A stretch of DNA of 64,000 bases from Brevundimonas mediterranea (GTDB taxonomy: Bacteria > Pseudomonadota > Alphaproteobacteria > Caulobacterales > Caulobacteraceae): positions 882,494 to 946,493 of the forward strand of contig NZ_JACIDA010000002.1 in assembly GCF_014196125.1 (NCBI RefSeq), read 5' to 3'. Numbering within the stretch: position 1 is the first letter of the stretch; each line of letters begins with the position of its first letter. The notes under the pieces were generated by a model, which was not told the DNA's origin, ran no database searches, and was given only the letters and a program-made list of their open reading frames with translations. A program made the translations under genes and the position numbers. Shown one piece after another: positions 7,178-33,320 of this stretch.

Positions 7178-7191
7178 TTGATCTTGCTCAA
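7178..7191 (-). promoter_or_regulatory. FNR-type anaerobox upstream of the PPOX-ldh unit
   Basis: TTGATCTTGCTCAA matches TTGAT-N4-ATCAA at 9 of 10 positions. It overlaps the last codons of the FNR-family gene. The -41.5 rule places a start near 7143, leaving an 18-base leader with a ribosome site before the ATG at 7125. Confidence 0.65.
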
Positions 7192-9097: not shown

Positions 9098-9111
9098 TTG
9101 ATCTCGATCAA
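9098..9111. promoter_or_regulatory. Perfect FNR-type anaerobox
   Basis: TTGATCTCGATCAA matches TTGAT-N4-ATCAA at all 10 positions and is itself a perfect palindrome. On the minus strand the -41.5 rule gives a start at about 9063 for the cytochrome gene; on the plus strand about 9146 for the small ORF at 9166. It may serve both. Confidence 0.75.
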
Positions 9112-11951: not shown

Positions 11952-12108
11952 GAGAACCTCCGATGGACCGGCGGACGGCCGGCAGGCTCTCCGACAGACG
12001 CCGGCGCGCGTGAAATCTTACTGCAGCGCCGGACTGATCGCGAAAGCGGGTGTCGGCGGGCGCGGAAGGATGCGGCTCCGGCGGTCGGAACCGCATGTCC
12101 GGCGACGC

Positions 12109-13146: not shown

Positions 13147-13162
13147 CAGGGCCCTCCCGGTC

Positions 13163-14266: not shown

Positions 14267-15356
14267 CAGGCGATCCTCTTGCGGAAGCGCCAGGCCGCGA
14301 GCGCGAACACCGTCGCGGTATAGGCCGCCAGCACGAGGACATTGGGCCAGAGGTCCCCGAGCCCCGCGCCCCGCAGCACGACCCCGCGTGAGAACTCGAG
14401 AAAATACCGCGTCGGCAGCACCGAGGCGTAGGCCTGAAACGCTGGCGGCATGGTGAAGAGCGGATAGACGAAGCCGGAAAACAGGAAGGCCGGCATCAGG
14501 GTCACGATCAGGGCCGTCAACATGGCGGCCAGCTGGGTGCGCACGAGGGTGGAGACGAGCAGTCCGATGGAAACCGTGCAAAGAACGTAGAGAAGGCCCA
14601 CGGCGAGAAGCAGCCCCACGCTTCCCCGCACCGGCACGTCGAACCAGACCACGCCGCCAAGGACGACAAGGAGAAGTTCCGCATAGGCGATCACGGCGTA
14701 GGGCAGCAGTTTGCCGGCGATGAACTCGCTCCCGGTCAGCGGCGAGGCGTAGATCTGGGCGATGGTGCCCAGTTCCTTTTCGCGCGCGACGGCCAGCGCC
14801 GTGAGCAAAGGCGGGAAGGCCATGAGGATCACCGCGAACAGGCCCGGTACGATGAAGTTGCGGCTGCGCAGTTGCGGATTGTACCAGACGCGCACCTCGG
14901 GCCTGAGAGGGAGGCGCGCCTCCTCCGGATAGGCGTGGAGGATGGCCCGGCCATAGGCCGACAGGATCGCCGCCGTGCTGGCGTAGGTGCCGTCGACCAC
15001 GAACTGCACAGGCGCGTCCTCGCCGCGTCCGAGGCGCGCGGAGAAGCCCGGCGGGATGAACAGCGCCGCCCGGGCCGTCCCGCGCATCAGGGCGTGCTCG
15101 GCCGAGCGTTCGTCCTCCGGCGCCGCCTGGAGGACGAAATATCCCGAGTTGAGAAACCGGGCCTGCAGCTCCCGGCTGGCGGCGGTCCGGTCATGGTCGA
15201 CCACGATCAGCGGCGCGCGGTCGACGTCCAGCGATATGCCGTAGACGAACAGGAACAGCATCATCAGCGGCATGAACAGCGCCACCCCCATGGTGAAGCG
15301 GTCGCGGGAGATCTCCAGCACCTCCTTGCGGGCGAAGGCCAGAACGCGCCGCGCCT

Positions 15357-15360
<4 letters not shown>
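14266..15360 (-). CDS. ABC-2 type exporter permease (YhhJ-like), first copy
   Basis: 364 residues with the same plan as the next gene: TM1 (FMGVALFMPLMMLFLFVYG-like), a periplasmic domain (VVDHDRTAASRELQ, EVRVWYNPQLRS), the REKELGTIAQIYASPLTG motif and five C-terminal membrane helices. It overlaps the upstream ATPase gene by 4 bases (start 15360, ATPase stop at 15357). The two permeases clearly descend from one ancestor. Confidence 0.9.
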
Positions 15361-17063
<1,703 letters not shown>

Positions 17064-17067
17064 CCCC

Positions 17068-18039
17068 CTACTCCGGAACGGCGAGACGGTCGGGCCAGCC
17101 GGCGGAGGCGTCCCACAGAATCCATGCATCGGCCGGCATGCCGGGCTTGAGCAGCCCGTCCGGATTTTCAGCCTCCAGAGTGACCCCGTAGACGGTCCGG
17201 CCCCGTTCGTCCTGCATGTGAATATCGCGCGGGGTGAACTGGGCCTGGGCGTCGACCCGGGCCACGCGCGCCGCGAAATCCCGGCCGGGAAAGGCGTCAA
17301 CCCGCAGCCTGGCGGGAGCCCCCAGACGGACCTTGCCCAGGTCCGGCTCCCGAACGAAGACACGCAGCCTCACCCGCGACAGGTTGGCCAGCACCACCAC
17401 GGGCTGGCCGGCGACGATCACTTCGCCGGGCTCGGCGAGACGCTCCAGCACCGCCCCCGATATCGGCGAGGCGATATGGGTCCTGACCAGCTGCGATCGG
17501 CCCAGGGCCAGGGTCTGGGACGCCGCCTCGGCCTGGGCGACGGCCTCGCCGCGACGCGCCTCAAGCAGGCTGATCTGATCCACGGCGGCCTGATGGGCGT
17601 TGCGGACAACGTCGAGGCGTTGGGCCGTGACATAGCCCTCACGCGCGAGCGCCTCGTAGCGCGACAGATCCGCCCGGGCCGAAGCGGCGTGATGGCGGGC
17701 CAGATCGATCTGGCTGCTCACCTGGGCCACGGTCTGCCCGGCGGCGGCGCGTTGGGCGGCGGCGCGATTCATGAGCAGACGGGCGTCGGACGGGTCGATG
17801 GAGGCCAGCGGGGCTCCGGCCCGAACCGGGGCGCCTTCCAGGGCGTGGTTCTGCAGTAGACGGCCGGACAGCTCAAACGAGACACGCACCTCGTCGACCT
17901 CGATCCGCCCGCTGCCGTAGATGACCTGGGCCGGCGCCGGAGCGGGCTGCAACCGCCAGAAGGCGGCGGCCGAGCCGGCGGCGACCACAATGAGGCCGAC
18001 AGCCACCAGCACCGTCAGACGTCGCCCCTGAATCCTCAC
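17068..18039 (-). CDS. HlyD/YhiI-family membrane fusion protein
   Basis: 323 residues: one N-terminal membrane anchor (LTVLVAVGLIVVAAGSAAAF), the split lipoyl domain (YGSGRIEVDEVRVSFELSGRL and the later SPISGAVLERLAEPGEVI), a long coiled coil between (Ala/Gln/Glu-rich, residues about 85-165), and a beta-barrel. I chose the GTG at 18039 because GGAGG lies 6 bases upstream; no ATG is placed well. It heads the HlyD-ATPase-permease-permease operon and links the inner membrane pump to an outer-membrane channel. Confidence 0.88.
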   Translation of the reverse strand: MRIQGRRLTVLVAVGLIVVAAGSAAAFWRLQPAPAPAQVIYGSGRIEVDEVRVSFELSGRLLQNHALEGAPVRAGAPLASIDPSDARLLMNRAAAQRAAAGQTVAQVSSQIDLARHHAASARADLSRYEALAREGYVTAQRLDVVRNAHQAAVDQISLLEARRGEAVAQAEAASQTLALGRSQLVRTHIASPISGAVLERLAEPGEVIVAGQPVVVLANLSRVRLRVFVREPDLGKVRLGAPARLRVDAFPGRDFAARVARVDAQAQFTPRDIHMQDERGRTVYGVTLEAENPDGLLKPGMPADAWILWDASAGWPDRLAVPE

Positions 18040-18500
18040 ATCCTGCCTCCGGACGCGCTCGCCTGTTCGATGCGCTGATCCTGAAGACGCCGGGTGGAAG
18101 GATTGCTTACGCCCTCGGAAGCCGCCCGCGACGGCGGCTGTGCGCAAGGGGCAGCCGCGCTTCGAGCCGGGAGAGGAGATCCGGCGCCGAAGTCCCCCCA
18201 AGCTTCGTCGGACATGATCGCGCCAGCCGGGGGCCCCGCGGCGTGCGTCTCGATCCGGCCGCGCAGACAGGGCGCCAGTCCGCCCGGCCCCTTGGCGAAG
18301 ACGCCGAATTAGCAGGTCGAGGCCCGCTGTTGGGAGCGACGATGAACGGCTTGCCACGACTGGATCCTTGATCGGACAATGACCTGATGGCCCAGGGTCT
18401 GACGCCGGCGACCGGCGGGTCTTACGACCGTCGGCCTTCCGCGTCGGTAATGATCGGTCGGGTGAGGCGTCAGACGGCGGACGGTGTTCAGAACGGAAGG
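18040..18500. other. Intergenic region without a supported gene
   Basis: About 460 bases upstream of the exporter operon. No ORF here has recognisable protein content and I find no FNR-type site of better than 7 of 10. It presumably contains the exporter promoter and possibly a decayed gene. Confidence 0.4.
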
Positions 18501-18554
18501 GGCCTCGCATGACCTCCAATTCCCCCGGGATCGGCCGGGTCTTCACGCGGCGAG

Positions 18555-18878: not shown

Positions 18879-18899
18879 TTTTCACCGGAGTTCTTCTTG

Positions 18900-21281
18900 A
18901 TGCGCACCACCACCATCGACGTTTCCGGATTCCGCACCCCGCTGGATCCGCTCGTGATCGAGAAACACCTGCGGGGTCTGAAGGGCGTGCTGGACGCCGC
19001 CGCCAACTTCGGCTCGGCCACCGCCACGGTGCGCTACGACGAGGCCCGTCTCAGCCAGGCCGAACTGGAACAGGCCGTGCGGGACTGCGGCTTCCATTGC
19101 CGGGGCGAGGTCGTGCCCCGACACGTCTGCGTCCCGAACGAGGATGCCGTGGACGCCCGCGCCTCGCACCCCCACCCGCCGGCGGCCCCGGCGGCCGCCC
19201 ACGGGGATCACGCGGCGAGGCGCGGGCACGGGGCCGCGGCCGGCCCCGACGACATGGCCGAGATGGGCCACGGCCCCGGCATGGACATGCAGGCCATGGC
19301 CCGGGACATGCGCAACCGCTTCCTGATCGCGCTGGGCTTCACCGTTCCAATCTTCTTCCTCGCCCCGATGGGCATGGACTTCATGCGCGTGGCGCCGCCG
19401 TTCGGCCTGCCGCTGAAGCCGCTGCTGTTCGTTCTGGCCAGCGCCGCCATCCTCTACCCCGGCTGGCCCTTCTACATCGCCGCGGTCCGGGCGCTGCGAC
19501 GCGGCGTGCTCAACATGGCGGTGCTGGTCCTGCTCAGCGTCGGCACCGGCTATCTGTTCAGCGTCGGCGCGACTTTCCTCTATGACGCGCCGGACTTCTA
19601 CGAGGCCTCGGCCCTGCTGCTGGTCTTCATCCTCATGGGCCACTGGCTCGAGATGCGGGCGCGGGCCGGCGCCTCGGACGCCATTCGCCGACTGATGGAC
19701 CTGGCGCCGCCCACCGCCCGCGTGCTGCGCGACGGCGTCGAGGTCGAGGTCCCGACCTCCGCCGTTCTGGTGGGCGACCGGGTGGTGGTCCGCCCGGGCG
19801 GCCGCATCCCGGTTGACGGCGTCATCGAGGACGGCGGATCGGAGGTCGACGAATCCATGCTCACCGGCGAATCCCTGCCGGTGATGAAGGGGGTCGGCGA
19901 TGCCGTGACCGGCGGCGCCATCAACAAGACCGGGGCCTTCCGCTACAGCGCCACCCGGGTGGGCGCCGACACCGCCCTGGCCCAGATCGTCAAGCTGGTG
20001 CAGGAGGCGCAGAACTCCAAGGCCCCCGCCCAGCTGCTCGCCGACCGCGCCTCCCAGTGGCTGGTGCTGGCCGCCATCGTCATCGGCCTGCTCACCTTCG
20101 GAATCTGGTTCTGGGTCCTGGGCCAGACCCTGCTGTTCGCCCTGACCCTGACGATCACCGTCTTCGTCATCGCCTGCCCCGACGCGCTCGGCCTGGCCAC
20201 CCCCATGGCGATCATGGTGGGCACGGGGCTGGGCGCGCGGCACGGCGTCCTGATCAAGAACGCCGCCGCCCTCGAGGACGCCGTCAAGCTGGATGTGATC
20301 GTCTTCGACAAGACCGGCACCCTGACCCTCGGCGCGCCCAAGGTCGTCCAGATCACCCCGGCCGCCGGGGTGGACGAGACCGACCTGCTGACCACGGCCG
20401 CGGCCCTCGAGCGAGGGTCCGAGCATCACATCGCCAAGGCCGTGCTGGAGCGGACCCGGGACCTCCCCGAAATCGCGGCGGCGGGCTTCGAATCCTTCGG
20501 CGGCAAGGGGCTGCGGGCGACGGTGGACGGTCGCACCGTGCTTTCCGGCAACCGCATGCTGATGGCCGACAACGGCGTCGAGCTCGGCGAGCTGGCCACG
20601 GAATCCGAACGGCTGCAGGGCGCCGGGCGCACCGTCGTCCACATCGCCCGCGACGGCCGCGTCATCGGCCTGATCGCGGTGGCCGACGCCGTGCGGCCGA
20701 CCGCCGGGGCCACCATCCGCCGGCTGCAGGGCCTGGGCGTCAAGGTCGCCATGATCACGGGCGACAACCTCGGCACGGCGCGGCGCATCGCGGGCGAACT
20801 GGGCATCGACATCGTGCTGGCCGAGGTCCTGCCCGGGGAGAAGGCGCTCAAGATCAAGGAGCTCCAGGGCGAGGGGCACAGGGTCGGCATGGTCGGCGAC
20901 GGCGTCAACGACGCCCCCGCCCTGACCCAGGCCGATGTCGGTTTCGCCATCGGGGCCGGGACCGACGTGGCCATCGAGAGCGCCGACGTGGTGCTGATGC
21001 GCAGCGACCCCGCCGACGTGGTCAAGGCCATCGAACTGTCGCGCGCCACCCTGCGCAAGATGCATCAGAACCTGTGGTGGGCCGTCGGCTACAACGTCAT
21101 CGCCTTCCCGCTGGCCGCGGGCGTGCTCTACCCCTTCACCCTGAGCCCCGAGATCGCCGCCCTGTCTATGTCCGGCAGTTCGGTGCTGGTGGCGATCAAC
21201 GCCCTGATGTTGAAGCGCCTGCGACTGGGCGCCGGTATGACCTCCCCGTCGTCCGCCAGAGCCGCAGCGGCGCCGATCTAG
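18900..21281 (+). CDS. P1B-type heavy-metal ATPase with a CPD motif
   Basis: 793 residues. The N-terminal HMA-like domain (about 1-75) lacks the CxxC metal site; a His-rich linker follows (about 85-140). Membrane helices, the phosphatase loop LTGESLP, the metal-site motif [10 protein letters not shown] (426-428 where CPC or CPH is usual), the phosphorylated DKTGTLT (D470), the nucleotide-domain HP-equivalent in EHHIAKAV, and [10 protein letters not shown] are all present. Metal may therefore differ from Cu(I) types. ATG at 18900 follows CCGGAG; TTG at 18897 is in frame. Preceded by a broken methyltransferase gene. Confidence 0.9.
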
Positions 21282-21769
21282 CGTCGCCATCGGCCGTAAC
21301 GTTCGGGCGGACGCCCGGCGATTTCGCGGGGCCCCGGCAACCGGGCGCGCACGCCGCGTTCCTGGGACGGTCGCTGGGGATGGCGCCGGGCTCGCCTGGC
21401 GCGCCCTGGCGCCGGGGTTCGTCGTCATCGCGGGACGCCCGGCCTCGTCGATGATCGCCTATGGCCCGGCCGTAGCGGTGGGCGGCCTGCGCCCCGGCAA
21501 GGCCAGGATGTCCGGCTCGGCAGACGGACGGCGGCGGTGAGCCTCGGCCAAGCCCCCGGCCCGGTGACGCGCAACCCCGGCCGATTCCGTTCGCCGTCGT
21601 GGTCTCTGTCGCCGGAGCGATCGTCGCCCCGCTGCGGCCATGGGCGTTCCATCCGCAGTCCGCTTGAACCCTCGACGTGACGGGACGCATGTAATCACCC
21701 GGGGGACTCGAACGTCTTAGCGAATGACCCGGCGCCACCCGCCAACGTGCATCCGTGAAAGGCACGACC
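21282..21769. other. Intergenic region without a supported gene
   Basis: About 490 bases. Open frames exist on both strands, but none has recognisable composition or motifs. A short plus-strand frame (FVVIAGRPASSMIAYGP) looks protein-like and could be debris of a lost gene. Confidence 0.4.
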
Positions 21770-23026
21770 ATGATGCAAGACGTGAGGGAGGCGCTTGGCT
21801 CGATCCTGCCCGGCCAGACGGCCTTCGGTCTCCTCGCCGCGCTGCTGCGGCGGACGGTCCGCTATGGATCGCTGGTGGTGATCGATCCATGGGACGAGCG
21901 GCATGCCTTCGGCACGGGCGAGGCGCCCTTCGCCACAGTCCGCATCGCCGACCCGCGCGAGGCGGCCAGGCTCCTGGCCAACCCGCGTCTGCGGGTGGGC
22001 GAAGCCTATATGGAGGGTGGGCTCACGCTCGAGGCGGGCACGCTGCGCGATTTCCTGCTGATCGGCGTGGCCGCTTCCGGGGCGATGACCAAGGAAGCTC
22101 GGGCTCTGCGCGAGTTCGCCGCGCCGTTCAGGCCGCGGCGGCACAATCCGATCCCCCGCGCACGGGCGAACGTTGCGCACCATTATGACCTCTCCGAAGA
22201 GCTCTATCGGCTGTTCCTCGATGAAGACCTGCAATACTCCTGCGCCTATTTCCAGGACGGCGACGAAACGCTGGAGCAGGCGCAGGCCAAGAAGAAGCGC
22301 CACATTGCGGCCAAGCTGCGGTTGCACCCGGGCGTACGCGTGCTCGATATCGGTTCGGGCTGGGGCGGCCTGGCCCTGGAGCTCGCCCGCCGTTATGGAG
22401 TCGAGGTCGACGGCGTGACGCTGTCGCAGGAACAGCTGGCCGTGGCCCGGGCGCGCGCGGCCGAGGCCGGTCTGGAGGATCGCGTTCGGTTCCACCTGAG
22501 GGACTATCGGCAGGAGGCGGACTCCTACGACAGCATCGTCTCTGTTGGCATGTTCGAGCATGTCGGGACCCCGCACTACCTTGAATTCTTCGACGCGCTG
22601 AGCCGGCTGCTGGCGCCCGATGGCGTCGCCGTGATCCATGCCATCGGCCGCAAGGGGCCGCCAGGCGAGGCCGATCCGTGGATCGACAAGCACGTCTTCC
22701 CCGGCGGCTACTGCCCGTCCCTGTCGGAAGTGTTCGCCGCGGTGGAGAGGTCAGGGCTCTGGGTCACCGACGTGGAGATCCTGCGCCTGCACTACGCCGA
22801 GACCCTGCGGCACTGGGCCGAGCGGTTCCAGGGCGAGCGCGGGCGTGCCGCCGCGCTCTATGACGAGCGCTTCTGCCGGATGTGGGAATACTACCTCGCC
22901 GTCTGTGAAGCCGCCTTCCGGGTCGGCGGCCTGATGGTGTTCCAGATCCAGCTCGCCCGCGATATCCGCGCCCTTCCGTTGACCCGGGACTACGTGGTCG
23001 ATGCGGAGCGCCGCGGCGTCCCCTGA
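21770..23026 (+). CDS. cfa: Cyclopropane-fatty-acyl-phospholipid synthase
   Basis: 418 residues. An N-terminal lipid-binding domain with VGEAYMEGGL is followed by NVAHHYDLSEELYRLFLD, the AdoMet site VLDIGSGWGGLAL, the GVTLSQEQLA strand, SVGMFEHVG and the C-terminal YYLAVCEAAFR; these are standard Cfa landmarks. It adds a methylene bridge from S-adenosylmethionine to unsaturated phospholipid acyl chains, a stress adaptation. ATG at 21770 follows AAAGG; an upstream GTG at 21755 is in frame. It sits 90 bases upstream of the type II GAPDH. Confidence 0.92.
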   Translation: MMQDVREALGSILPGQTAFGLLAALLRRTVRYGSLVVIDPWDERHAFGTGEAPFATVRIADPREAARLLANPRLRVGEAYMEGGLTLEAGTLRDFLLIGVAASGAMTKEARALREFAAPFRPRRHNPIPRARANVAHHYDLSEELYRLFLDEDLQYSCAYFQDGDETLEQAQAKKKRHIAAKLRLHPGVRVLDIGSGWGGLALELARRYGVEVDGVTLSQEQLAVARARAAEAGLEDRVRFHLRDYRQEADSYDSIVSVGMFEHVGTPHYLEFFDALSRLLAPDGVAVIHAIGRKGPPGEADPWIDKHVFPGGYCPSLSEVFAAVERSGLWVTDVEILRLHYAETLRHWAERFQGERGRAAALYDERFCRMWEYYLAVCEAAFRVGGLMVFQIQLARDIRALPLTRDYVVDAERRGVP

Positions 23027-23116: not shown

Positions 23117-24172
23117 ATGGCTCAATCAGACACCATCCGCGTCGCGGGGAACGGCTACGGCGTGATCGGCAAGCGGGTGGCGGCGGCCATCGACGCACAG
23201 GGAGACATGACCCTGGTCGGCGTGGCCGACGTCAGCGCCGAGCTGCGCCTGCGCGTGGCCTCCCGGAAGGGCGTCTCACTGTATGGCGCCGCCGATGACG
23301 CCCCCCGGGCGATGGAGCGCGCCGGCCTTCCGGTTGCGGGCGGCCTGGACGACCTGATCGCGGCCGCCGACATCGTGGTCGACTGCACGCCCAAGGGCAT
23401 CGGGGCCGCCAACGCCGAGCTCTACCGGCGCAAGGGCAAACCGTTCATCGTCCAGGGCGGCGAAAGGCACGCGGTGACCGGTCACTCCTTCGTCGCCGAG
23501 TCGAGCTATGCCGGCGCGCTCGGACGGTCATCGACGCGGGTCGTCTCCTGCAACACCACCTCGATCGTCCGCACCCTTGGCGCGCTCAAACAGGCGGGAT
23601 TGCTGCACCGGGCCCGGGGTACGCTGCTGCGAAGGGCGACGGACCCTTGGGAAAGCGACCGGGGCGGGATCATGAACACCCTGGCGCCGGAGCCCGGGAT
23701 TCCGAGTCATCAGGGCCCCGATGCGCAGAGCGTCGACCCCGGACTGGATGTCGTGACCATGGCGGTCAAGGTTCCGGAGACGATCGCTCATCTGCACTAT
23801 TGGGCGGTGCAAATGACCCGTCCGGCCGAAAAGGCCGAAGTGGTCGCGGCTCTCCTCGCGTCCTCGCGCATCGCCCCCGTGCGCATGGCCGATGGCATGA
23901 CCGCGCTGAACAGCGTCAAGGAACTGATGGCCGATCTCGGCCGTCCGCATGACAGTCTCTACGAGGTGGCGCTCTGGGTGGACATGCTCCGCGTCCAGGG
24001 CGACGAACTCTTCTACGCCTATATGGTCGACAACCAGGCCATCGTCGTACCCGAGACCATAGACGCCATCCGGGCGCTTGCGGGCCGGATCACGGAGGCG
24101 GCGGACTCGATCGCCATGACCGACGCCAGCTTGGGCGTCGGCGCCGTCGCGGGGTTGGGCTTTCCGGATTAG
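23117..24172 (+). CDS. Type II glyceraldehyde-3-phosphate dehydrogenase (archaeal type)
   Basis: 351 residues. It has the N-terminal NAD(P) loop GYGVIGKRVAAAI, the segment VVDCTPKGIGAANAE and the catalytic Cys in VVSCNTTSIVRTL, all diagnostic of archaeal-type (type II) GAPDH rather than the bacterial GapA form. It oxidises glyceraldehyde-3-phosphate to 1,3-bisphosphoglycerate, often with NADP. Type II enzymes are uncommon in bacteria. A fragment of a second copy is at 920-1052, next to an FNR box. It lies within the phosphoketolase/phosphorylase island. Confidence 0.9.
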   Translation: MAQSDTIRVAGNGYGVIGKRVAAAIDAQGDMTLVGVADVSAELRLRVASRKGVSLYGAADDAPRAMERAGLPVAGGLDDLIAAADIVVDCTPKGIGAANAELYRRKGKPFIVQGGERHAVTGHSFVAESSYAGALGRSSTRVVSCNTTSIVRTLGALKQAGLLHRARGTLLRRATDPWESDRGGIMNTLAPEPGIPSHQGPDAQSVDPGLDVVTMAVKVPETIAHLHYWAVQMTRPAEKAEVVAALLASSRIAPVRMADGMTALNSVKELMADLGRPHDSLYEVALWVDMLRVQGDELFYAYMVDNQAIVVPETIDAIRALAGRITEAADSIAMTDASLGVGAVAGLGFPD

Positions 24173-24357
24173 GTCGCGTCCGGCCATTCCCGAACGCAGG
24201 CCGCAAATCACCGTCCGTCTTCGTCGAGCGGCGGTGGCGCCACGGGCCGCCCGATGCCGTCCAGGGAAGGCGCAGGTGGCGCATCCCGCCTGGAGCCGGA
24301 CCGGATGCGGGCCGGCGGAATCGCCGCGAGGCGGAATACAATACGCATCACGATTGA

Positions 24358-24431
24358 GTATCCCTCAACAAAACAGGCGCTGAGGGGAATCTTTTCAAGC
24401 ACTTGATTCAACGCAAATCTTGGCGTTGCTT
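24358..24431 (+). promoter_or_regulatory. Conserved 74-bp promoter block of ECF gene 1
   Basis: This block is repeated upstream of the paralogous sigma gene (32417-32490); I count about 66 of 74 identical bases. Its core reads GGGAATC, then CACTTGATTCA and CAAATCT. GGGAATC could be an ECF -35 element for autoregulation. TTGATTCAACGCAA resembles an FNR box at 8 of 10 positions, and the second copy has a comparable TTGATTCAGCACAA. Confidence 0.5.
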
Positions 24432-24470
24432 GTCCGTGAGTGCTCCCTGACTTCATGCAGGAGAAGGTCC

Positions 24471-25169
24471 ATGAGCTTGCAGAGCCCCATCGCGGCGCGT
24501 GACCAGGGAATACGAGCCGTCGCCCCCCGACTGGCCGCCCGCGCGACACCGGCGGCCGAGATTCGACGCCTTGTCGAGCGCCGCTTGCGCGACGATCGCC
24601 CGGCGCACCTTCGTTACCTCCTCAAACGGCTGCGGTCGCACGAAGACGCCGAAGATGTCCTGCAGGAGTTCGCCCTCAAGGCCACGCTGGCGGCCAGCCG
24701 GCTCACCGATCCCGGCAAGGTGGACGCCTGGCTCGGGGTCGCGCTTCGCAACGCCCTGTTCGACCGCTATCGCCGCAACGCGGCCAGGGCGCGGTTGACA
24801 GAGGCGCTGAGCGCCGAGGCGGCCTGCGACGGGGAGAACCCCGCGGATGACGAGCTTGCCCAGTCGCTCCGTTGCCTCGCGCTGGTTCTTGCGGATCTGG
24901 CGCCCGAAACCGCCAGCCTGCTCCGGAGAGCGGAACTGGAAAGGACTCCGCTGGCGACGATCGCCGGCGAGATGCATCTGACCGCCAACAATGTCGGCGT
25001 GAGGGTCCACCGGGCCCGGGCCGTGCTGCGGGAGGGAATGCGGGCCCGCTGCGGGCTCTGTCCCGATCCCTGCGCCCTGGCGGTCGCCGCCTCCGTCCGC
25101 GCGACCCTCGTTGATCCCCTGCGGCCTCAGCCTTCGACCTCGATCAGGTCGGTGTGCGACGCCGCATAG
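24471..25169 (+). CDS. ECF-family RNA polymerase sigma factor with C-terminal Cys motif, copy 1
   Basis: 232 residues. Region 2 is HLRYLLKRLRSHEDAEDVLQ followed by WLGVALRNALFDRYRR; region 4 is LAPETASLLRRAELERTPL with an HTH (IAGEMHLTANNVGVRVHRAR). After region 4 there is a Cys cluster, CGLCPDPC (C-x2-C-x3-C), suggesting a metal or redox-sensitive tail. No anti-sigma gene is adjacent. A paralogue with the same motif lies at 32530. The last 43 bases overlap the convergent phosphorylase gene. ATG at 24471 matches the paralogue (MSLQS). Confidence 0.85.
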   Translation: MSLQSPIAARDQGIRAVAPRLAARATPAAEIRRLVERRLRDDRPAHLRYLLKRLRSHEDAEDVLQEFALKATLAASRLTDPGKVDAWLGVALRNALFDRYRRNAARARLTEALSAEAACDGENPADDELAQSLRCLALVLADLAPETASLLRRAELERTPLATIAGEMHLTANNVGVRVHRARAVLREGMRARCGLCPDPCALAVAASVRATLVDPLRPQPSTSIRSVCDAA

Positions 25170-26653
25170 ACCATGGCGTAATCGAGTTCGCCCCGGCTCT
25201 CCGCGTGGACCGTGGCCAGGGCGTCGCCCGCCGCCACCTCCATCCCGAGGCGGACGTGCATCTCCAGACCGGCCGCCTTGCGTTCGGGTGCGCCGGCCAG
25301 TTTCGCCAGGGTCGCGATCTGGCGGTTGTTAACCAGGATCACCCGACCCGACCGGGTCGCCCGGATCACGGCGCGCTGGCCCGCCGTGGGCGGGACGCGC
25401 ATCCCGCCCTGGGCTTCGCAGATCCGCTGGAATTTCGTCCAGGCGCGCCCATCGGCGATCACGCCCTCGGCGGCGGTCACTCCCTCCCCCGCGGCCGCCC
25501 GCCCGGCCAGTTCGAGTGCGGCGCCCGCCAGCAGGCAGGCGCGCGCTCGCAGATCCGCGGGCGCCCCGGGACGGTTCTGCAGCACGGCGAGGATGTCGCG
25601 GGCCTCCAGGGCCGGCCCGATGCCGACGCCCACGGGCTGTGAGCCGTCCGTCTGCAGGCACAGCGCCCGAATTCCAAAGCCGCTCGCCACGGCCGTCAGC
25701 CGCGCGGCCAGCGCTCCGGCCGCCTCCGCAGAGCGCACCTTGGCGGTCGCACCGACCGGGAGGTCCAGCACCACATGGGTCGAGCCGGCCGCGATCTTCT
25801 TGGACAGAACCGAGGCGATGAGCTGGCCGTCGGTGTCGACGTCGAGAACCCGTTCGATGCGGATGAAGATGTCGTCCACCGGGCTCAACCGGACCGCGCC
25901 GCCCCAGACGACGCAACCGCCTTCGGCCTCGACCACCCGCCGCATCGCGCCCACGTCGAGATCGACCGGCGCCAGGGTCTCCATCGTGTCGGCCGTTCCG
26001 GCCGGCGAGGTGATGGCGCGCGAGGAGGTCTTGGGGGCGACCAGGCCGCAGGCGGCGAGGATCGCCACCACGATCGGCGTCGTCCGGTTGCCGGGCAAAC
26101 CGCCGATGCAGTGCTTGTCCATGACCACGTCGGCGGCCCAGCTCAGGCGGTCTCCCACGTCCACCATGGCGCGGGTCAGGGCGACCGTCTCGGCCTCGTC
26201 CAGCGGAAGGGCGGAGGTGGCGGTCAGAAAGGCCGCCAGATGAATGGAGGTGTAGCGCCCCGCGGCCACATCGCGGATGACCCCCTGGATCGCCGTTTCG
26301 TCCAGCCGCGCGCCATAGATCCGGCGGCGGACGCTGGACATGGACTCGATGGCCGGCGCGTGTCGCACGGCGACGGGGTCGCCCGGCGCCACCCCCAGCA
26401 GGCGCCACGCCTCTTCGGAGAGCGCGACTTCGTCGTGGCCGAGGAGGTCCCCTTCCATCTGGTACAGGGTGGCGTAGACCTCGCGGCCCCCGGCCGACAG
26501 CACCACCTGGGCGCGCGACGACAGGCCCTCGGAGCGGCAGACCGGGCAGTCTCGCCGCATCAGCACGATCGACTCGTGCTGGGCGTGAAGACCGAAGCGG
26601 CGCGCCTTCAGGGAAGGAACCGCGGCGTGGGACGGGTTGGACAGGCGGGTCAC
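25127..26653 (-). CDS. deoA: Archaeal-type thymidine/AMP phosphorylase
   Basis: 508 residues, longer than classic DeoA because of an N-terminal domain (about 1-95, LKARRFGLHAQ and MRRDCPVCRSEG). The phosphate/substrate motif is MDKHCIGGLPGNRTTPIV; DKHxIGGxPGNR is typical of the archaeal AMP phosphorylase/TIGR02645 branch, whereas DeoA has DKHSTGGVGD. AMP phosphorolysis to ribose-1,5-bisphosphate and adenine, or thymidine phosphorolysis, are both possible. GTG at 26653 overlaps the upstream stop by 4 bases (GTGA), so translation is coupled to the beta-CASP gene. Confidence 0.85.
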   Translation of the reverse strand: MTRLSNPSHAAVPSLKARRFGLHAQHESIVLMRRDCPVCRSEGLSSRAQVVLSAGGREVYATLYQMEGDLLGHDEVALSEEAWRLLGVAPGDPVAVRHAPAIESMSSVRRRIYGARLDETAIQGVIRDVAAGRYTSIHLAAFLTATSALPLDEAETVALTRAMVDVGDRLSWAADVVMDKHCIGGLPGNRTTPIVVAILAACGLVAPKTSSRAITSPAGTADTMETLAPVDLDVGAMRRVVEAEGGCVVWGGAVRLSPVDDIFIRIERVLDVDTDGQLIASVLSKKIAAGSTHVVLDLPVGATAKVRSAEAAGALAARLTAVASGFGIRALCLQTDGSQPVGVGIGPALEARDILAVLQNRPGAPADLRARACLLAGAALELAGRAAAGEGVTAAEGVIADGRAWTKFQRICEAQGGMRVPPTAGQRAVIRATRSGRVILVNNRQIATLAKLAGAPERKAAGLEMHVRLGMEVAAGDALATVHAESRGELDYAMVYAASHTDLIEVEG

Positions 26654-28008
26654 AGCGCGTGACGCTCCATCATCTGGGGAATGACGCAGTCCCATCCGAA
26701 CCGGTCCTGGATGCGGACGCGCAGGGCGTCGGACGCATGCGGTTCGCCATGAACGATGAAGACCTTGCGCGGGGGCCGCTTGAGGCCGGACAGCCAGCGC
26801 AGGATTTCCTCGGCGTCCGGGTGAGCCGAAAGCATGGGCAGATTGGCGACCTCGGCCTGGATGGGGACCCACCCGCCGTGGATCTTCACCTCCCTGGCGC
26901 CCTCGACCATCGAACGCCCGCGGGTTCCGGCCGCCTGGAAGCCCGAAAACAGGATGGTGTTGCGCCGATCCGGGCCGAAGGCCTTGATGTGATGGAGCAC
27001 CCGCCCGCCGGTGGCCATGCCACTCGCCGACAGGATCACCTTGGGCATGGGGCTTGCGGTGAGCTTCTTGGACGCCTCCACGTCGCGCACATAGGTGGCG
27101 ACGGCGCAGGCGGCGTCGCACACGTCGGGCGGCATGCGGTGGTCTTCCAGATGCGCGCACAGCAGGTCGGTGGCGTTGATCGCCATCGGACTGTCCATGT
27201 AGATCGGCGTCAGGCCGATCCGCCCCGCCTGCTTCAGCCGCCAGATGTGGTACAGCAGCGACTGGGCCCGGCCGACGGCGAAGGTGGGGATGACGACGGT
27301 CCCGCCGCGCGCGGTGGTCCGCTCGATGACCTCGCCGAGGGCTTCCGTGGGGTCCTGGGGGTCGTGGCGCCGGTCGCCATAGGTCGATTCCACGACCACA
27401 TAGTCGGCCTCCGCCACGGGCTCGGGATCGACCATGGTGGCGTCGCCATAGCGGCCGAGGTCGCCGGAGAAGAGGATCTTCGTCCCGTTCCAGGTCACCT
27501 CGGCGGTGGCCGCGCCGAGGATGTGCCCGGCGCGCCGCAGCATCAGGCTGGCTCCGCCCGGCAGCTGGACCGACGTGTGGAACGGCGTCGGGGCGAAGCG
27601 CTCCACCGCGCGCTCCGCGTCATGAACCCCATAGAGCGGCAAGGCCGGCTTGTGCTTGCCGTAGCCGTAGCGGGTCGCCTGCTCGGCGTCCTTCTCCTGG
27701 ATGTGGCCGCTGTCGCGCAGGATGATTTCCGCCACGTCCCGTGTGGCGGCGCTGGCCAGGATGGGTCCGCGGAATCCGTCCTTGACCAGTTTGGGCAGAT
27801 AGCCGGAATGGTCCAGGTGGGCGTGGGTCAGCACCACCGCGTCGATGCTGGACGGCTCGATCGGCAGGGGGGCCCAGTTCTGCTCGCGCAGGGTCTTGAG
27901 GCCCTGGAACAGGCCGCAGTCGACCAGGATGCGGCGGCCGTCCGCCTCCAGCAGGTGTTTTGATCCGGTGACGGTGCCGGCGCCGCCGAGGCTGGTGAGA
28001 CTGATCAC
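26650..28008 (-). CDS. Beta-CASP metallo-beta-lactamase-fold RNA/nucleic-acid hydrolase
   Basis: 452 residues. The MBL domain has the metal site THAHLDHSGYL (HxHxDH), later GHILGAA and SGDLGRYGDA, and the C-terminal RMM-like VHGEPHASDAL. The inserted beta-CASP region has the SASGMATGGRVLHH segment and PKVILSASG. Relatives are CPSF73/YSH1-like RNA processing nucleases. GTG at 28008, preceded by GGAAGGA, overlaps the phosphoketolase stop by 4 bases. Why a nuclease sits between phosphoketolase and phosphorylase is unknown; supplying nucleotides from RNA to the phosphorylase is a speculative link. Confidence 0.88.
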   Translation of the reverse strand: MISLTSLGGAGTVTGSKHLLEADGRRILVDCGLFQGLKTLREQNWAPLPIEPSSIDAVVLTHAHLDHSGYLPKLVKDGFRGPILASAATRDVAEIILRDSGHIQEKDAEQATRYGYGKHKPALPLYGVHDAERAVERFAPTPFHTSVQLPGGASLMLRRAGHILGAATAEVTWNGTKILFSGDLGRYGDATMVDPEPVAEADYVVVESTYGDRRHDPQDPTEALGEVIERTTARGGTVVIPTFAVGRAQSLLYHIWRLKQAGRIGLTPIYMDSPMAINATDLLCAHLEDHRMPPDVCDAACAVATYVRDVEASKKLTASPMPKVILSASGMATGGRVLHHIKAFGPDRRNTILFSGFQAAGTRGRSMVEGAREVKIHGGWVPIQAEVANLPMLSAHPDAEEILRWLSGLKRPPRKVFIVHGEPHASDALRVRIQDRFGWDCVIPQMMERHAL

Positions 28009-30379
28009 GAGGAAGATCCTTCCGGGGGTGAGACTTGCAGGATGCGGGGGTGGGCGTCGCCGCGAACGGCGGCCAGTTCCGCGGGGGTGAGAACGCCGGA
28101 CGCGTCGGCGCCGAGGAGGTCCGCGCAGGCAACCGCTGCATGGGCCCAGGTGCACCGGTTGGCGAACAGCATGCCCGGGGTGTCGAGGGTTCCGCCGCGG
28201 CTGATGTAGCCCAGAGCCCGGGTGCGTCGGGGTCCGCCGTCGAGGCGGCGCAGCAGGCCGAGCATGGGCTCGGGCCGCGTATGGGTCAGGATCAGGCGCG
28301 GCAGGCGCTCGGGGAAGCAGGCCTCCAGGTCCTCGGGCGACGCGGTATGCCTCGCCTCGATCTCGTCGCGCGGGGCCCGGAACCGGCCCGGCTCGAGCAG
28401 GGCCACGACGCAGACCCGGCGGCCGCTCCGTTCCAGCCGGACGGCGGCGGCGATGGCTTCTCGGGCCTGATAGGCGCCGACCGCGACGATCTGCATCTCG
28501 GCCGCGGCCGGGTCGCCGTGAATCACCCCCGCGCCCCTCGCCCACAGGGCCTCGGCGGCGGCGGCGTCGACCAGGCAGGGCCCGATCCGTTTCGGGACGA
28601 CGAGACAGGCGACCTCGCCGCGGCCGCCGTAGACGCCGCGAAGCGCGGCCACGGCGCTGTTGGCGTCGACCGGGAACAGCACCCGCGCGGTGTCGGACAT
28701 CTCCCCGAGCAGCGCCTCGGCCAGGGTCGGATCCTGATGCGACTGTTCGTTCTTGCCGTTCTCCCAGGTATGGGAGGTGGCGACCAGCGGCACGCTCAGC
28801 CATTGCGGCGGGACGCCGATCTCCCGCTGCCGCCGCGCGAAGAGGATCTCCTGGCGCAGCAGACCCAGCATCTTCACGGCGAAGGCCTCGTAGCTGACGA
28901 TCAGGTTGAGGCCGCCCTTGTTGCCCAGGGCCGCGCCGGCCACGGCCTCCTCGTTCAGGGCCGTGACGACGGCCCCGTCCACCGCTTCCGGCAGGCCCGG
29001 CTCCGGGCGGTTCACCCGGTGGCGGAGCCGCTCGAGCGTCCGTCCCATGCCGTTGCTGCGGAGTTCGTCCGGGTTGCCGAGCCGGACGCGCAGGCCCGGA
29101 TTGGCGTCGACGAACGACACGAACCAGTCGTCGATCGCCGCCATGGGCGAACGCGGTCCGGCCTCCGGAGACGGCGCGGGCCGGACCGGCGCCGGCGGCG
29201 CTCGCCGCGCGGCCGGATGGCCGCTCTCGAGCGGACGGCGCTGCAGTTCATGCGTCGCCAGGGCGCCGAGCGCGGGCTCGAGTTCGCGCGGCGGCACGAA
29301 GAGGGCGGCGGCGGCGGCGTTGAAGGCGGCGCGCGCCGCTGAATCGGTGTGCGGGTTTCCCTCCAGCGGAAGGTTGTGGGCCCGGTTGGTCCCCGCCCCG
29401 GGAAAGCCGAAGCCTTTGACGGTGCGGGCGACCACATAAGGCAGCCGCGCCGGATAGAGGCGGTTGGGATCGGCGGTGAAACGCTTCAGCCGCTCTTCGG
29501 ATTCCAGGATGGCCCAGGCCACGGCGGCGGGGTCGCGGCCGTCGATCTCGATCGGATCGAACCCGTTCAGGCGCAGGTGGCGGTCAAGCCAGTCCGCGCC
29601 GCCGTCCTGGGCGATCTCGGTGCGTTCCTCGATGCGGCGTCCGTTGAGGATCATGACGGGCGTGACGAGGCCGCAGTCCTCCGCCCGCCACCAGCGCGGC
29701 GACCAGTCCGAGCCGCGCTGCTCCTCGAAGGCGCCGTCGCTCAGGAAGGCGACCAGGCTCTCGCCGCGCAGCGGCATGTGGACATATTCGAGCTCGGCGA
29801 GCCGAGATAGCCGCCCTCCGAGACGGCGCCCGCCGTCCCGGGGCCGGCGTGACTGCCGAGGGGAACCGCGGGGCGGCCGTCGGGACCGATCGCATAGCTG
29901 TAGAAGTCGGCCGCCAGCTGGGACAGGCCGGCGTCGGAGCGATCGTAGCGACCCGTCTGTCCCGGCGAGACGTCCCCGGTCAGGGCGTTGACCGCCTCCA
30001 CGGCGGCGACGCAGTGGCCCTGCCCCATGATCCAGGCGCGCGTTCCCCCGGACAGCGCATTGGCGAGCAGATAGCCCACGAAGGCCGGGACCATGTTCAG
30101 CGATCCCCCGGTATGTCCCTCCGGCGCGGCCTTGAAGGCCTCCGCCGGCAGGGTCGCGCCGGACAGGTCCACGCGGCGCGCGTAGGTCATGTGCGCCACC
30201 AGCCACAGAGCGGCGCTGGCCAGCCGATCAGCCGCGGCCAGCAGACGGTGGACCGACTCCTCGTCCGGCCAGACGCCGCGCCGCACGAGGCGGTCGGTCG
30301 TCGCGGCCAACCGCTCGACGGTCTCCGGGCTCCGCACCAACGGCCCGTAGCCGCCCCGCCATGTCTCCGCCCAGCGCAT
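28005..30379 (-). pseudogene. xfp: Phosphoketolase (XFP-like), frameshifted
   Basis: The N-terminal quarter is read from ATG 30379 (GHTGGSLNMVPAFVGYLLANAL, WIMGQGHCVAAVEAVN, PLGSHAGPGTAGAVSEGGYLG); after about 29805 the matching protein continues in another frame (LAELEYVHMPLRGESLVAFLSDGAFEEQR and on through SHTWENGKNEQSHQDP to the stop at 28005). Joined, it would be about 790 residues, the normal phosphoketolase length. The enzyme splits xylulose- or fructose-phosphate to acetyl-phosphate using ThDP. The break is a few missing bases after GGYLG. Either a real mutation or a sequence error; the downstream genes are coupled to its stop. Confidence 0.85.
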
Positions 30380-30539
30380 CGATTCCTCGTCCGTCCGTCA
30401 GCGTCCGGCCTCGATCCGGTCGTGCGTATGACGCCGCTCGCACGGAATGCTTACGGCGGGGGGATCGATGTCGCCGCGCCTTGCGCGCGGTCCCCCGGGG
30501 CGCCAAGATGATCGCCTGCCTGATGAAACGGATGACGAG

Positions 30540-31211
30540 ATGTGCCTGTCGGCGCCCGTGAGCTTCGCCGCCGCCGCCCTGCTGATCCCGACCGGCGGCT
30601 TCACCGTGGCGACGGCGCTGAGGCGTGATCCGCGCTACGCCATGCTGGCCGCTCTGCCGATCCTTCTGGGCCTCCAGCAACTGATGGAGGGGTTCATCTG
30701 GGTGGCGGGCTCCGGCGGCGATCCGGAGGGCGCCCGCCTCTATTCCCTCGCCTATATGTTCTTCGCCTGGGTGGCCTGGCCGATCTGGCTGCCGGTCTCG
30801 GTGTATTTCATCGAGCCGCACCGGCGGCGCGCGGCCTATCTGGTGTTCGCGGTCGCCGGGGCCGCCCTGGGGGCGGTTCAGTTCATTCCCTATCTGGTCC
30901 ACGAGGGCTGGCTGCAGGTCACCCTGCTGCCCCGCGCGATCCGCTACAGCGACACCGAACTGCTCGACGCGGTCATCGGCCGGCCCATGACCTACCTTGT
31001 CTATGTCACGATCATCATCGTCCCGCTGCTGCTTTCGACGGATCGCACGGCAAGGGTGTTCGGCAGCCTGGTGGCGCTGGTGCTGGCGGTCACCGTCGGC
31101 TTCTTCCAGTGGGCCTATATCTCGGTCTTCTGCTTCGGCGGCGCGGCGGCGTCCCTGTATCTGATCTGGGCCCTCTCCCGGAAGCCGGCGGCGTCGCCCG
31201 CGCCCTGCTGA
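30540..31211 (+). CDS. DUF6629-type membrane protein
   Basis: 223 residues with about seven hydrophobic helices. The N-terminus MCLSAPVSFAAAALLIPTG and the LGLQQLMEGFIW segment match uncharacterised DUF6629 membrane proteins (typically MCFSATASF and QQxxEGxxW). Function is unknown. It is divergent from the phosphoketolase operon with about 160 bases between them. ATG 30540 gives this canonical N-terminus; upstream frames are not conserved in character. Confidence 0.75.
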   Translation: MCLSAPVSFAAAALLIPTGGFTVATALRRDPRYAMLAALPILLGLQQLMEGFIWVAGSGGDPEGARLYSLAYMFFAWVAWPIWLPVSVYFIEPHRRRAAYLVFAVAGAALGAVQFIPYLVHEGWLQVTLLPRAIRYSDTELLDAVIGRPMTYLVYVTIIIVPLLLSTDRTARVFGSLVALVLAVTVGFFQWAYISVFCFGGAAASLYLIWALSRKPAASPAPC

Positions 31212-32416: not shown

Positions 32417-32490
32417 GTATCCCTCAACAAAACAGGAGTCGAAGGGAATCTTTTTAAGCACTTGATTCAGCACAAATCTAGGCGTTGCTT
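32417..32490 (+). promoter_or_regulatory. Conserved 74-bp promoter block of ECF gene 2
   Basis: Counterpart of 24358-24431, about 66 of 74 bases identical. The conserved islands (GTATCCCTCAACAAAACAGG, GGGAATC, AAGCACTTGATTCA, GGCGTTGCTT) are likely promoter and regulator contacts. Confidence 0.5.
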
Positions 32491-32529
32491 ACTCAGGAAT
32501 CTTCACTGACTTCATGCAGGGGACCAACC

Positions 32530-33240
32530 ATGAGTTTACAGAGCCTCGTCACCGCTTCCAGCCGGGGAACACCGTCCACATACCCCCGGCTTGCTGCCTC
32601 CGCGACGCCGGCGGCTGAAATTCGCCGCCTCGTCGAGCGCCGTCTCCGCGAGGATCGTCCGACGCATTTGCGCTACCTCGTCAAACGGCTGCGCTCGCCC
32701 GAAGACGCCGAGGACGTCCTGCAGGAATTCGCTCTCAAGGTGACCCTGGCGGCGGGCCGGCTGACCGACTCTGGCAAGGTGGACGCCTGGCTCGGGATCG
32801 CGTTGCGCAACGCCCTGTTCGATCGTTACCGCCGCAACGCGGCTCGAGCCCGGTTGACGAACGCCCTCGACGCCGAGCCCCGATATGACGAGGGGAACGG
32901 AACTAACGACGACGTCCACCGCGCGCTGCACTGTCTCGCGCAGGCCCTCGCCGAGCTTCCGCCGGAAACCGCTCGCCTGCTGCGCAAGGCGGAAATGGAA
33001 GATGTCCCTTTGGCGGCGATCGCCGGCGAGATGCGACTGGCCGCCAACAACGTCGGCGTGCGGGTGCACCGGGGCCGCGCCGCGCTGCGGCGGCAGATGC
33101 TGGCGCACTGCCAGGCCTGCCCGGAGCCCTGCGCCCTGGCGGCCGCGGCCACCGCCCGCGCGACGCGGGCCGGGACTTTGGAGCATCAGACATCGACTTC
33201 GATCCGGTCGCCATGCGACGCCGCATATTCCAGGGCGTAA
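32530..33240 (+). CDS. ECF-family RNA polymerase sigma factor with C-terminal Cys motif, copy 2
   Basis: 236 residues, alignable over almost its whole length with the sigma factor at 24471: shared EIRRLVERRL, LRSPEDAEDVLQEFAL, NALFDRYRRNAARARL, and the HTH IAGEMRLAANNVGVRVHRGR. The Cys cluster is CQACPEPC, again C-x2-C-x3-C. The reading frame is intact, unlike its neighbours, so it may still be used. Its 3' end overlaps the convergent phosphorylase fragment just as copy 1 overlaps deoA. Confidence 0.85.
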   Translation: MSLQSLVTASSRGTPSTYPRLAASATPAAEIRRLVERRLREDRPTHLRYLVKRLRSPEDAEDVLQEFALKVTLAAGRLTDSGKVDAWLGIALRNALFDRYRRNAARARLTNALDAEPRYDEGNGTNDDVHRALHCLAQALAELPPETARLLRKAEMEDVPLAAIAGEMRLAANNVGVRVHRGRAALRRQMLAHCQACPEPCALAAAATARATRAGTLEHQTSTSIRSPCDAAYSRA

Positions 33241-33320
33241 TCCCGTTCGCCCGGGGTTTCCGAATGAACCGTGGCCAAGGGGTCGCCGGCCGCCACTTCC
33301 ATGCCAAGGCGGACGCGCAT
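33186..33320 (-). pseudogene. 3' end of a second archaeal-type thymidine/AMP phosphorylase gene
   Basis: The last 44 codons (RVRLGMEVAAGDPLATVHSE, then ERDYALEYAASHGDRIEV) match the end of deoA at 25127 (HVRLGMEVAAGDALATVHAE, ELDYAMVYAASHTDLIEV). Upstream of 33320 similarity decays quickly; only traces (GQVDAICGRQ) may extend to about 33410. Confidence 0.8.

Follow-up and report, generated by a model that had tools for sequence, protein, structure and literature searches.

Genes around a phosphoketolase-like protein of Brevundimonas mediterranea may form a mobile module drawing ATP from nucleotide ribose

The window analysed here is a stretch of 64,000 nucleotides of Brevundimonas mediterranea (G000:C2:882494-946493; genome of 3.41 Mb, 99.7% complete), and its gene cluster at 23117-30379, built around a phosphoketolase-like protein (PKL), is the subject of this work. 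Three genes of the cluster lie on the minus strand. PKL is present as an N part (29741-30379; homologous stretch 29795-30379, ATG at 30379; PF09364, 25 bits) and a C part (28005 to ~29788; PF03894, 132 bits), followed by a ribonuclease-like metallo-beta-lactamase (MBL) of beta-CASP type (26650-28008; GTG start; Beta-Casp 110 bits, RMMBL 65 bits) and by TP2, a protein of 508 residues resembling nucleoside monophosphate (NMP) phosphorylases such as AMP phosphorylase (25127-26653; GTG start; TIGR02645, 557 bits against a cut-off of 434.6). An ECF sigma factor gene on the plus strand (24420-25169; Sigma70_r2, TIGR02937 over its cut-off) converges with TP2 and overlaps its 3' end, and a type II glyceraldehyde-3-phosphate dehydrogenase (GAPDH-II) is found at 23117-24172 on the plus strand (NF003251, 427 bits against 185; TIGR01546, 312 against 233).

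An initial annotation, made from the sequence alone, had read these genes as one route by which RNA is degraded and its pentose phosphates yield ATP without oxygen. Two GTGA overlaps which it had pointed out, at PKL/beta-CASP and beta-CASP/TP2, are present in the window DNA, and both are repeated in a second copy in the same genome; its archaeal-type assignment of the GAPDH agrees with the models, as the cut-offs of both TIGR01546 and NF003251 were exceeded. However, the phosphoribosyl pyrophosphate (PRPP) synthetase that it had placed within 23117-30379 has to be removed from that stretch, because the gene, a divergent second ribose-phosphate diphosphokinase (PRPPS-2), lies at 11010-11951 on the minus strand, 13 kb from TP2 (NF005537, 431 bits against 322; TIGR01251, 194 against 113). 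The gene set recurs elsewhere, but it is not one intact operon here, with PKL broken and PRPPS-2 distant.

The window PKL has one base fewer near 29790 than an intact copy in the same genome, and it is consequently split over two frames. The intact copy belongs to a second cluster (G000:C2:857659-868819; locus L035), about 44 kb from the window copy, which contains PKL (L035:16424-18793, protein P0003), beta-CASP, TP2, an ECF sigma factor, acetate kinase (AckA) and PRPPS-2. Between the two copies, identity is 94% for beta-CASP, 83% for TP2, 84% for the PKL C part and 82% for the N part. The ratio of nonsynonymous to synonymous divergence (dN/dS) is ~0.16 for each of the two PKL parts, 0.10 for beta-CASP and 0.18 for TP2, and dS is ~0.7, but 0.3 for beta-CASP. 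These values point to a duplication that is old and has been under selection; the lower synonymous divergence of beta-CASP (0.30 vs ~0.7; 26650-28008 against L035:15060-16415) suggests that gene conversion may have occurred there. Since the broken PKL has a dN/dS of ~0.16, similar to that of the intact TP2 (0.18), the break appears to be recent, or an assembly error. A programmed frameshift was considered and ruled out, as the second copy and all 38 aligned relatives (originally picked for another purpose) read through. Further copies are found nearby. A second ECF sigma factor (32485-33240, plus strand; 70% identity to its paralogue at 24420-25169) stands beside a TP2 C-terminal remnant of 43 residues (33192-33320, minus strand; 74% identity to TP2 465-507), and the two form a third, decayed TP2-ECF unit. 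GAPDH-II adjoins a cyclopropane fatty acid synthase-like gene (21755-23026 in the window, plus strand) in three places of the genome, the other GAPDH-II copies being C2:875778-876776 and C2:837592-838590; in a family search, the match at C2:837592-838590 contained one in-frame stop, TAG.

Both phosphoketolase domains are recognised in the intact PKL (PF09364 (XFP_N), 47.7 bits against 23.7; PF03894 (XFP), 130 against 22). No NCBIfam phosphoketolase cut-off was reached by the C part (87 bits at best) or by the intact copy (119.5-120), the cut-offs of the six models being 777-1518, and the best score against the PRK05261 subfamily cut-offs was 119.5 vs 962. Identity to the ordinary phosphoketolases of the class is 23-31% over the matched pieces. 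In plasmid records, RefSeq names the protein "xylulose 5-phosphate 3-epimerase" in 14 of 15 PKL matches that cover more than 80% of the length. In order to compare folds, an AlphaFold model of a 99%-identical Brevundimonas protein was used (38 rows; pLDDT 81, pTM 0.81). It aligns best with phosphoketolases (Z 41.3 over 709 residues, 3.5 A, 20% identity), while the best transketolase reaches Z 32.9. Of the columns that do not vary among 9 ordinary phosphoketolases, 88 are fixed in 12 PKL sequences as well and 233 are changed or variable; H100, H133, H188, K333, H346, S453, E488, Y508, N555 and H559 are invariant in both groups. We take these to pair with H64, H97, H142, K300, H320, S440, E479, Y501, N549 and H553 of the Bifidobacterium breve XFP, and H64, H142, H320 and H553 are named as mutated residues in PDB titles of that enzyme. 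Thiamine diphosphate (ThDP)-dependent phosphoketolase chemistry is thus likely for PKL, judging from residues and modelled fold, and by sequence the protein represents a distinct, divergent phosphoketolase subfamily. The phosphoketolase of the initial annotation stands as a divergent relative with XFP domains, but not as a single intact gene. With the enzymes of the phosphoketolase pathway or bifid shunt (B. longum and B. breve XFP; L. lactis XPK), PKL shares the predicted fold, the catalytic residues and the acetate kinase partner; it differs in being only ~20% identical, in conserved substitutions near the active site, and in that it would be fed by nucleotides, not sugars.

TP2 exceeds the cut-off of TIGR02645, the model for putative thymidine phosphorylases (557 vs 434.6), scores 463.5 against the AMP phosphorylase model TIGR03327, under the cut-off of 535, and reaches at most ~180 bits with DeoA-type models. 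The AMP-phosphorylase-type motif that had been read from the sequence is there (DKHCIGGLPGNR). When 22 TP2-type sequences and 2 DeoA were aligned, 28 positions marked the branch of TP2 and AMP phosphorylase; the window TP2 has 28 of 28 and the Thermococcus protein 24 of 28. In the tree, TP2 falls on the side of archaeal AMP phosphorylase and is separated from DeoA at 100/100 (8 loci with a non-fitting motif, two partial loci and one duplicate were left out of alignment and tree, and three rows are long). The assignment to the AMP-phosphorylase branch is therefore upheld by tree and marker positions, though the TIGR03327 cut-off was missed. The best PDB match is 4ga5, which we take to be the Thermococcus kodakarensis enzyme. 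As far as the available text of PMC9700705 goes, TK0352 of that organism acts on AMP, CMP and UMP.

The beta-CASP protein contains MBL, beta-CASP and RMMBL domains, as expected of a beta-CASP ribonuclease. The TTHA0252 ribonuclease (2dkf) is its best PDB match, and TTHA0252 and Cas14 (type VII CRISPR) are its closest sequence relatives among beta-CASP nucleases; against the Cas14 model NF045584 it scored 356 bits, under the cut-off of 800.

A link from TP2 to ribose 1,5-bisphosphate (R15P) comes from gene fusions. PhnN of phosphonate metabolism is a ribose 1,5-bisphosphokinase, which according to the available source text turns R15P into PRPP, and it is found in frame with or near TP2 relatives in a few genomes. 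PhnN and TP2 share one open frame in 3 of 385 genomes, from 3 families (G065, G509 and G533). For example, the fusion of G065 (L056:11637-13673) is an open frame of 678 residues, in which both halves are recognised by family models (PhnN by TIGR02322, 192 bits against 156, and TP2); the order of this genome was sampled by 11 genomes only. The frames of G509 (L216) and G533 (L217) match the G065 fusion as a whole, across both halves in one frame. Moreover, PhnN and TP2 are divergent neighbours in G165, and TP2 of G345 lies ~1.5 kb from a PhnN-like match (34%, one internal stop). Because PhnN stands in one frame with it, the TP2 of the fusion branch probably handles R15P, not thymidine. The fusions form a supported group (97/96) without the window TP2, whose nearest neighbours are not settled, and the transfer of the R15P link to the window protein is likely, not certain. 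No paper linking PhnN with thymidine phosphorylase was found in a literature search.

The neighbourhood of PKL was examined in the best 80 of at least 570 confirmed PKL relatives from a scan of genome contigs; because some of the loci have short flanks, the counts are lower bounds. Beside PKL we found beta-CASP in 71 loci, TP2 in 54, PRPPS in 50, acetate kinase in 40, a heavy-metal P-type ATPase in 27 and GAPDH-II in 10. The beta-CASP neighbours comprise 64 at 45% identity or more and 7 of another kind (~41%, 4-6 kb to the left). Beta-CASP, TP2 and PRPPS are all present in 44 of 80 loci. After clustering PKL at 90% identity (44 clusters), the numbers are 36 for beta-CASP, 26 for TP2, 25 for PRPPS, 20 for AckA, 15 for the P-type ATPase and 6 for GAPDH-II, and 20 of the 44 clusters have all of beta-CASP, TP2 and PRPPS. 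All matches of beta-CASP (71 of 71), TP2 (55 of 55) and PRPPS (50 of 50) and most of acetate kinase (37 of 41) are on the PKL strand, and AckA lies within 600 bp upstream of PKL on the same strand in 16 of 80 loci. This recurrence is more than chance. The initial annotation had proposed looking for co-occurrence of the genes, and PKL, beta-CASP, TP2, PRPPS and acetate kinase do co-occur in loci of three classes, the alpha-, beta- and gammaproteobacteria. GAPDH-II, which it had counted in the route, is present here but less tightly associated (10 of 80 loci). Among the matches listed, the closest PKL relatives are in Brevundimonas metagenome-assembled genomes, at 99% identity to the intact copy. 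PKL is in two pieces in 1 of 80 loci (L162), and one TGA lies inside the PKL match of a family genome (G227). Most literature searches aimed at the cluster found no paper, and one for the epimerase name listed 12.

Brevundimonas viscosa (L125) carries an HlyD-ABC exporter, PRPPS, PKL, beta-CASP and TP2 in line, which suggests that the exporter-dehydrogenase-PRPPS block of the window (11010-18546) and the PKL block descend from one ancestral cluster, split by a later insertion. In that block, PRPPS-2 is preceded on its own strand by a D-2-hydroxyacid dehydrogenase gene (12109-13149, minus strand; PF02826/PF00389). Between the blocks stands a copper-type P-type ATPase (18897-21281, plus strand; TIGR01511, 599 bits against 397), a type which is a frequent neighbour of PRPPS-PKL in other loci. 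Ten plasmid stretches were compared as well. In nine of them TP2, PRPPS or acetate kinase lies near PKL, and in one, from Phenylobacterium zucineum, none of the three does; the order P-type ATPase-PRPPS-PKL-beta-CASP-TP2 recurs, and acetate kinase overlaps PKL in an Alteromonas stretch. Copper genes are found in 7 of 10, arginine deiminase genes near the cluster in 2 of 10, and insertion sequences in several. BREX defence genes lie near the cluster on a conjugative Paracoccus plasmid (L117:24485-32343).

Of the 149 genomes sampled from the family, 9 carry a PKL with at least 60% identity, and TP2 exceeds its cut-off in 9 of these 9 vs 24 of 140 others (Fisher 5e-7; kinship is not corrected in the family Fisher values). 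GAPDH-II occurs in 4 of 149, that is in 2 of 9 PKL carriers vs 2 of 140 others (Fisher 0.018), and was considered as a core member; the association is weak in this sample, though GAPDH-II does stand near PKL in 10 of 80 loci. In the class sample (190 genomes), TP2 over cut-off is present in 26 and a close PKL in 1, the genome studied here.

An FNR/FixK-type regulator of the window (7188-7964, minus strand; Crp and HTH Pfam domains; NF045989 FnrL, 149 bits, under the cut-off of 300) shows CX2CX7C near its N terminus, as read from the sequence. Strict FNR boxes (TTGAYN4RTCAA) number 3 in the window vs 0.05 expected, with none before PKL, TP2 or the window GAPDH-II, and one strict box precedes another GAPDH-II copy of the genome. 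FNR-type boxes lie upstream of the regulator (TTGACGTGAATCAA, 7997-8010), upstream of a pair of HAD sugar-phosphatase/mutase and GH65 genes (TTGATGCACATCAA, 1105-1118) and at 9098-9111 (TTGATCTCGATCAA). In the 80 loci there are 35 strict boxes vs 4.4 expected by Markov resampling; 6 box-gene pairs fall within 400 bp of PKL, AckA, PRPPS, beta-CASP, TP2 or GAPDH-II vs 3.1 under random placement, and 4 of the 6 belong to GAPDH-II genes in four loci of Brevundimonas type. The search for looser, Bradyrhizobium-like boxes covered the window and three stretches of the same genome.

Expression of similar genes has been reported in Bradyrhizobium diazoefficiens. According to the available text of PMC6515984, bll3115 (MBL), bll3116 (PRPPS) and bll3117 (thymidine phosphorylase (TP) family) change by log2 factors of 2.9, 4.4 and 2.1 in microoxia, and bll2518 (phosphoketolase) by 4.3, with induction of transcript and protein. 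In the available part of PMC9104804, the fold changes in a fixK2 mutant are -6.6 for bll3117, -30.6 for bll3115, -10.0 for bll2518 and -10.2 for bll2517 (acetate kinase), and operons bll3117-3116-3115 and bll2518-2517 are predicted, with FixK2 boxes. In these source texts, sets with the same kinds of protein by annotation are thus microoxia-induced and FixK2-dependent; unlike the cluster here, they form two separate operons, and bll2518 is likened to PKL by annotation only.

On balance, we lean slightly towards reading the cluster as a mobile emergency-energy module, which makes ATP at substrate level from nucleotide ribose via acetyl phosphate. It probably serves cells that are short of oxygen or under metal stress, which would gain ATP from the ribose of the nucleotides they already contain, and the set does often travel with copper-resistance genes. 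From the observed clustering of the gene families, the PKL fold prediction and the PhnN-TP2 frames we infer the enzyme activities, as follows. The beta-CASP protein or general RNA turnover would supply NMPs, and TP2 would convert NMP and phosphate to base and R15P. The latter would become ribose 5-phosphate via the PRPP chemistry of PRPPS-2, and isomerisation to xylulose 5-phosphate would feed PKL. PKL would release acetyl phosphate and glyceraldehyde 3-phosphate, acetate kinase would make ATP from the acetyl phosphate, and GAPDH-II with the L-lactate dehydrogenase of the window (5646-6584, minus strand; TIGR01771, 322.6 bits against 303.6) would take the triose to lactate with redox balanced. 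When phosphoketolase, acetate kinase, the lower part of glycolysis and lactate dehydrogenase convert ribose 5-phosphate to lactate and acetate, the yield is 3 ATP for each nucleotide-derived pentose phosphate, and redox is balanced. The window copy is a rearranged duplicate with the PKL frame broken, and the intact copy 44 kb away would carry the function. The idea of the initial annotation is better supported than the raw sequence could show, with three corrections: the cluster is damaged in this copy, the isomerase and RuBisCO of the archaeal route were not found in the genome, and the phosphoketolase belongs to a distinct subfamily.

Several results weigh against this reading. A step that would turn R15P into a pentose phosphate is missing. 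Neither an R15P isomerase (PF01008, IF-2B) nor a form III RuBisCO (PF00016) was matched in the genome, which extends to the genome as searched what had been noted for the window; PF01008 was matched in 0 of 8 PKL-bearing family genomes, this one among them, and PF00016 in 1 of 30 genomes, as a fragment (G071). As both are absent from the genome as searched, the archaeal pentose bisphosphate pathway does not seem to operate here. The cluster resembles that pathway (T. kodakarensis TK0352, R15P isomerase, RuBisCO) in its NMP phosphorylase-type enzyme, with R15P as the probable node, but has a phosphoketolase-like enzyme and acetate kinase in place of the isomerase and RuBisCO. PhnN over cut-off was not found in the genome either (best 49 bits vs 156; under-cut-off matches to this model elsewhere resemble guanylate kinase). 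The proposed flow of pentose phosphates to acetyl phosphate and glyceraldehyde 3-phosphate lacks the R15P step and, in this copy, an intact PKL. Near the PKL active site, N552 and N347 replace Q and K554 replaces H in a conserved manner (presumably at the B. breve positions Q546, Q321 and H548), so the substrate may not be xylulose 5-phosphate, and several loops of the model have pLDDT below 50, 554-559 near the active site included. Acetate kinase accompanies PKL without TP2 in 15 of 80 loci, including Dechloromonas, Thauera, Curvibacter and Diaphorobacter. In 26 TP2 stretches of other class genomes (24 of 25 over cut-off and 2 below), beta-CASP is found in 12, PRPPS in 10 and PKL in 0; since TP2 without PKL is the commoner arrangement, the genes around TP2 form a core that extends beyond the PKL clusters and must also serve another role. 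A strict FNR box lies within 400 bp upstream of PKL in only 1 of 80 loci, and none before the window PKL; general direct FNR control of the PKL operon was ruled out, given the few boxes close to the cluster genes (6 pairs vs 3.1). ATP formation without oxygen, as first proposed, is in line with the Bradyrhizobium induction and FixK2 dependence in the source texts available; the strict boxes, nearly absent before PKL, do not support it. Finally, bll3115-3117 and bll2518 are in the laxer-threshold list of PMC6515984 and are not marked there, in its available text, as direct FixK2 targets.

R15P may possibly re-enter metabolism via the clustered second PRPP synthetase. The genome has three PRPP synthetases, one at 390 bits (C1:1318908), presumably the housekeeping enzyme, and two divergent ones in the clusters (194 and 176 bits). 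In four genomes of the same genus that lack a PKL match, the high-scoring type is the only one over cut-off, and the divergent type is present in all 8 PKL-bearing family genomes examined. PRPPS-2 is proposed as the R15P link because the divergent type tracks PKL genomes in this way and is not found in G065 and G533, which have the PhnN-TP2 frame; the third fusion genome, G509, has a second PRPPS at 338 bits. By its TIGR01251 score (194 vs 113), PRPPS-2 belongs to the PRPP synthetase family, and across 50 PRPPS-2 sequences including that of the window, RQD(93-95), R97, K190, R192 and DD(217-218) are conserved in 95% or more. The PKL genomes G247 and G320 encode PhnN over cut-off elsewhere, which weakens this link. 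Compared with the fusion genomes, the window genome has PRPPS-2 in the cluster and no PhnN over cut-off. A pentose bisphosphate route without isomerase or RuBisCO, in which PRPPS-2 passes the C1 phosphate of R15P to AMP/ADP or runs PRPP backwards to ATP and ribose 5-phosphate, is a tentative and rather doubtful proposal. Such a route would conserve one phosphoryl bond per nucleotide, and the ribose would then be fermented by way of the new phosphoketolase subfamily, with acetyl phosphate and ATP as products.

Other explanations have to be compared with the energy module. The window set could be a decaying duplicate without a function of its own, as the broken PKL frame, the TP2 remnant at 33192-33320, the distant PRPPS and the intact second copy would suggest; we think this somewhat unlikely, because the dN/dS of the broken PKL (~0.16) is similar to that of the intact TP2 (0.18) and the TP2, beta-CASP, PRPPS and GAPDH-II frames are open. 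A different account is nucleotide salvage, in which ribose phosphates are moved between NMPs and PRPP by TP2 together with PRPPS-2 (for base exchange, or for PRPP homeostasis after RNA damage), and PKL and AckA are a separate, hitch-hiking fermentative pair. The beta-CASP-TP2-PRPPS sets without PKL in other class genomes fit it, as do the PhnN-TP2 frames leading to PRPP, the 15 of 80 loci having acetate kinase and PKL without TP2, and the two separate operons of Bradyrhizobium. However, beta-CASP, TP2 and PRPPS are all on the PKL strand and all three present in 44 of 80 loci, the GTGA overlaps are kept in both copies, and both Bradyrhizobium operons, by the available source texts, answer the same oxygen regulator; on this evidence salvage alone seems unlikely.

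The remaining alternatives concern single enzymes. PKL may be the xylulose 5-phosphate 3-epimerase that RefSeq names in 14 of 15 long plasmid matches, or some other ThDP enzyme that lacks phosphoketolase chemistry, readings for which its 23-31% identity to ordinary phosphoketolases and scores far under the NCBIfam cut-offs would speak. The whole-length phosphoketolase fold of the model, the retained catalytic residues and acetate kinase in 40 of 80 loci make this very unlikely. TP2 as an ordinary thymidine or pyrimidine nucleoside phosphorylase, among unrelated stress genes on a copper-resistance island, would agree with the product names in the records, with copper genes in 7 of 10 plasmid stretches and with the insertion sequences in several. 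We regard it as highly improbable, considering the scores of at most ~180 bits with DeoA-type models vs 557, the separation from DeoA at 100/100, PhnN in one frame with TP2 relatives, and the presence of the gene set in three proteobacterial classes.

If the energy module is correct, genes for short-term survival on the cell's own nucleotides, once respiration fails, are present in many proteobacteria of soil and water, often on plasmids that also have copper genes. A function would then be given to a large enzyme family now named epimerase and to the archaeal-branch "thymidine phosphorylases" of bacteria, and the Bradyrhizobium microoxia gene set, listed by two papers without a pathway in their available text, would be explained.

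Some minor observations were made as well. In L143:3224-12358 and similar betaproteobacterial loci, an iron alcohol dehydrogenase, another kind of beta-CASP protein, acetate kinase and PKL occur without TP2, which may be an alternative fermentative arrangement. A DUF6629 membrane protein (30447-31211) is divergent from PKL in the window and has relatives in other stretches with PKL (L104, L106, L108, L117, L119 and L123). At 1105-4214, a beta-phosphoglucomutase-like HAD protein and a GH65 protein have a strict FNR box 50 bp upstream, which might indicate phosphorolytic sugar use under low oxygen.

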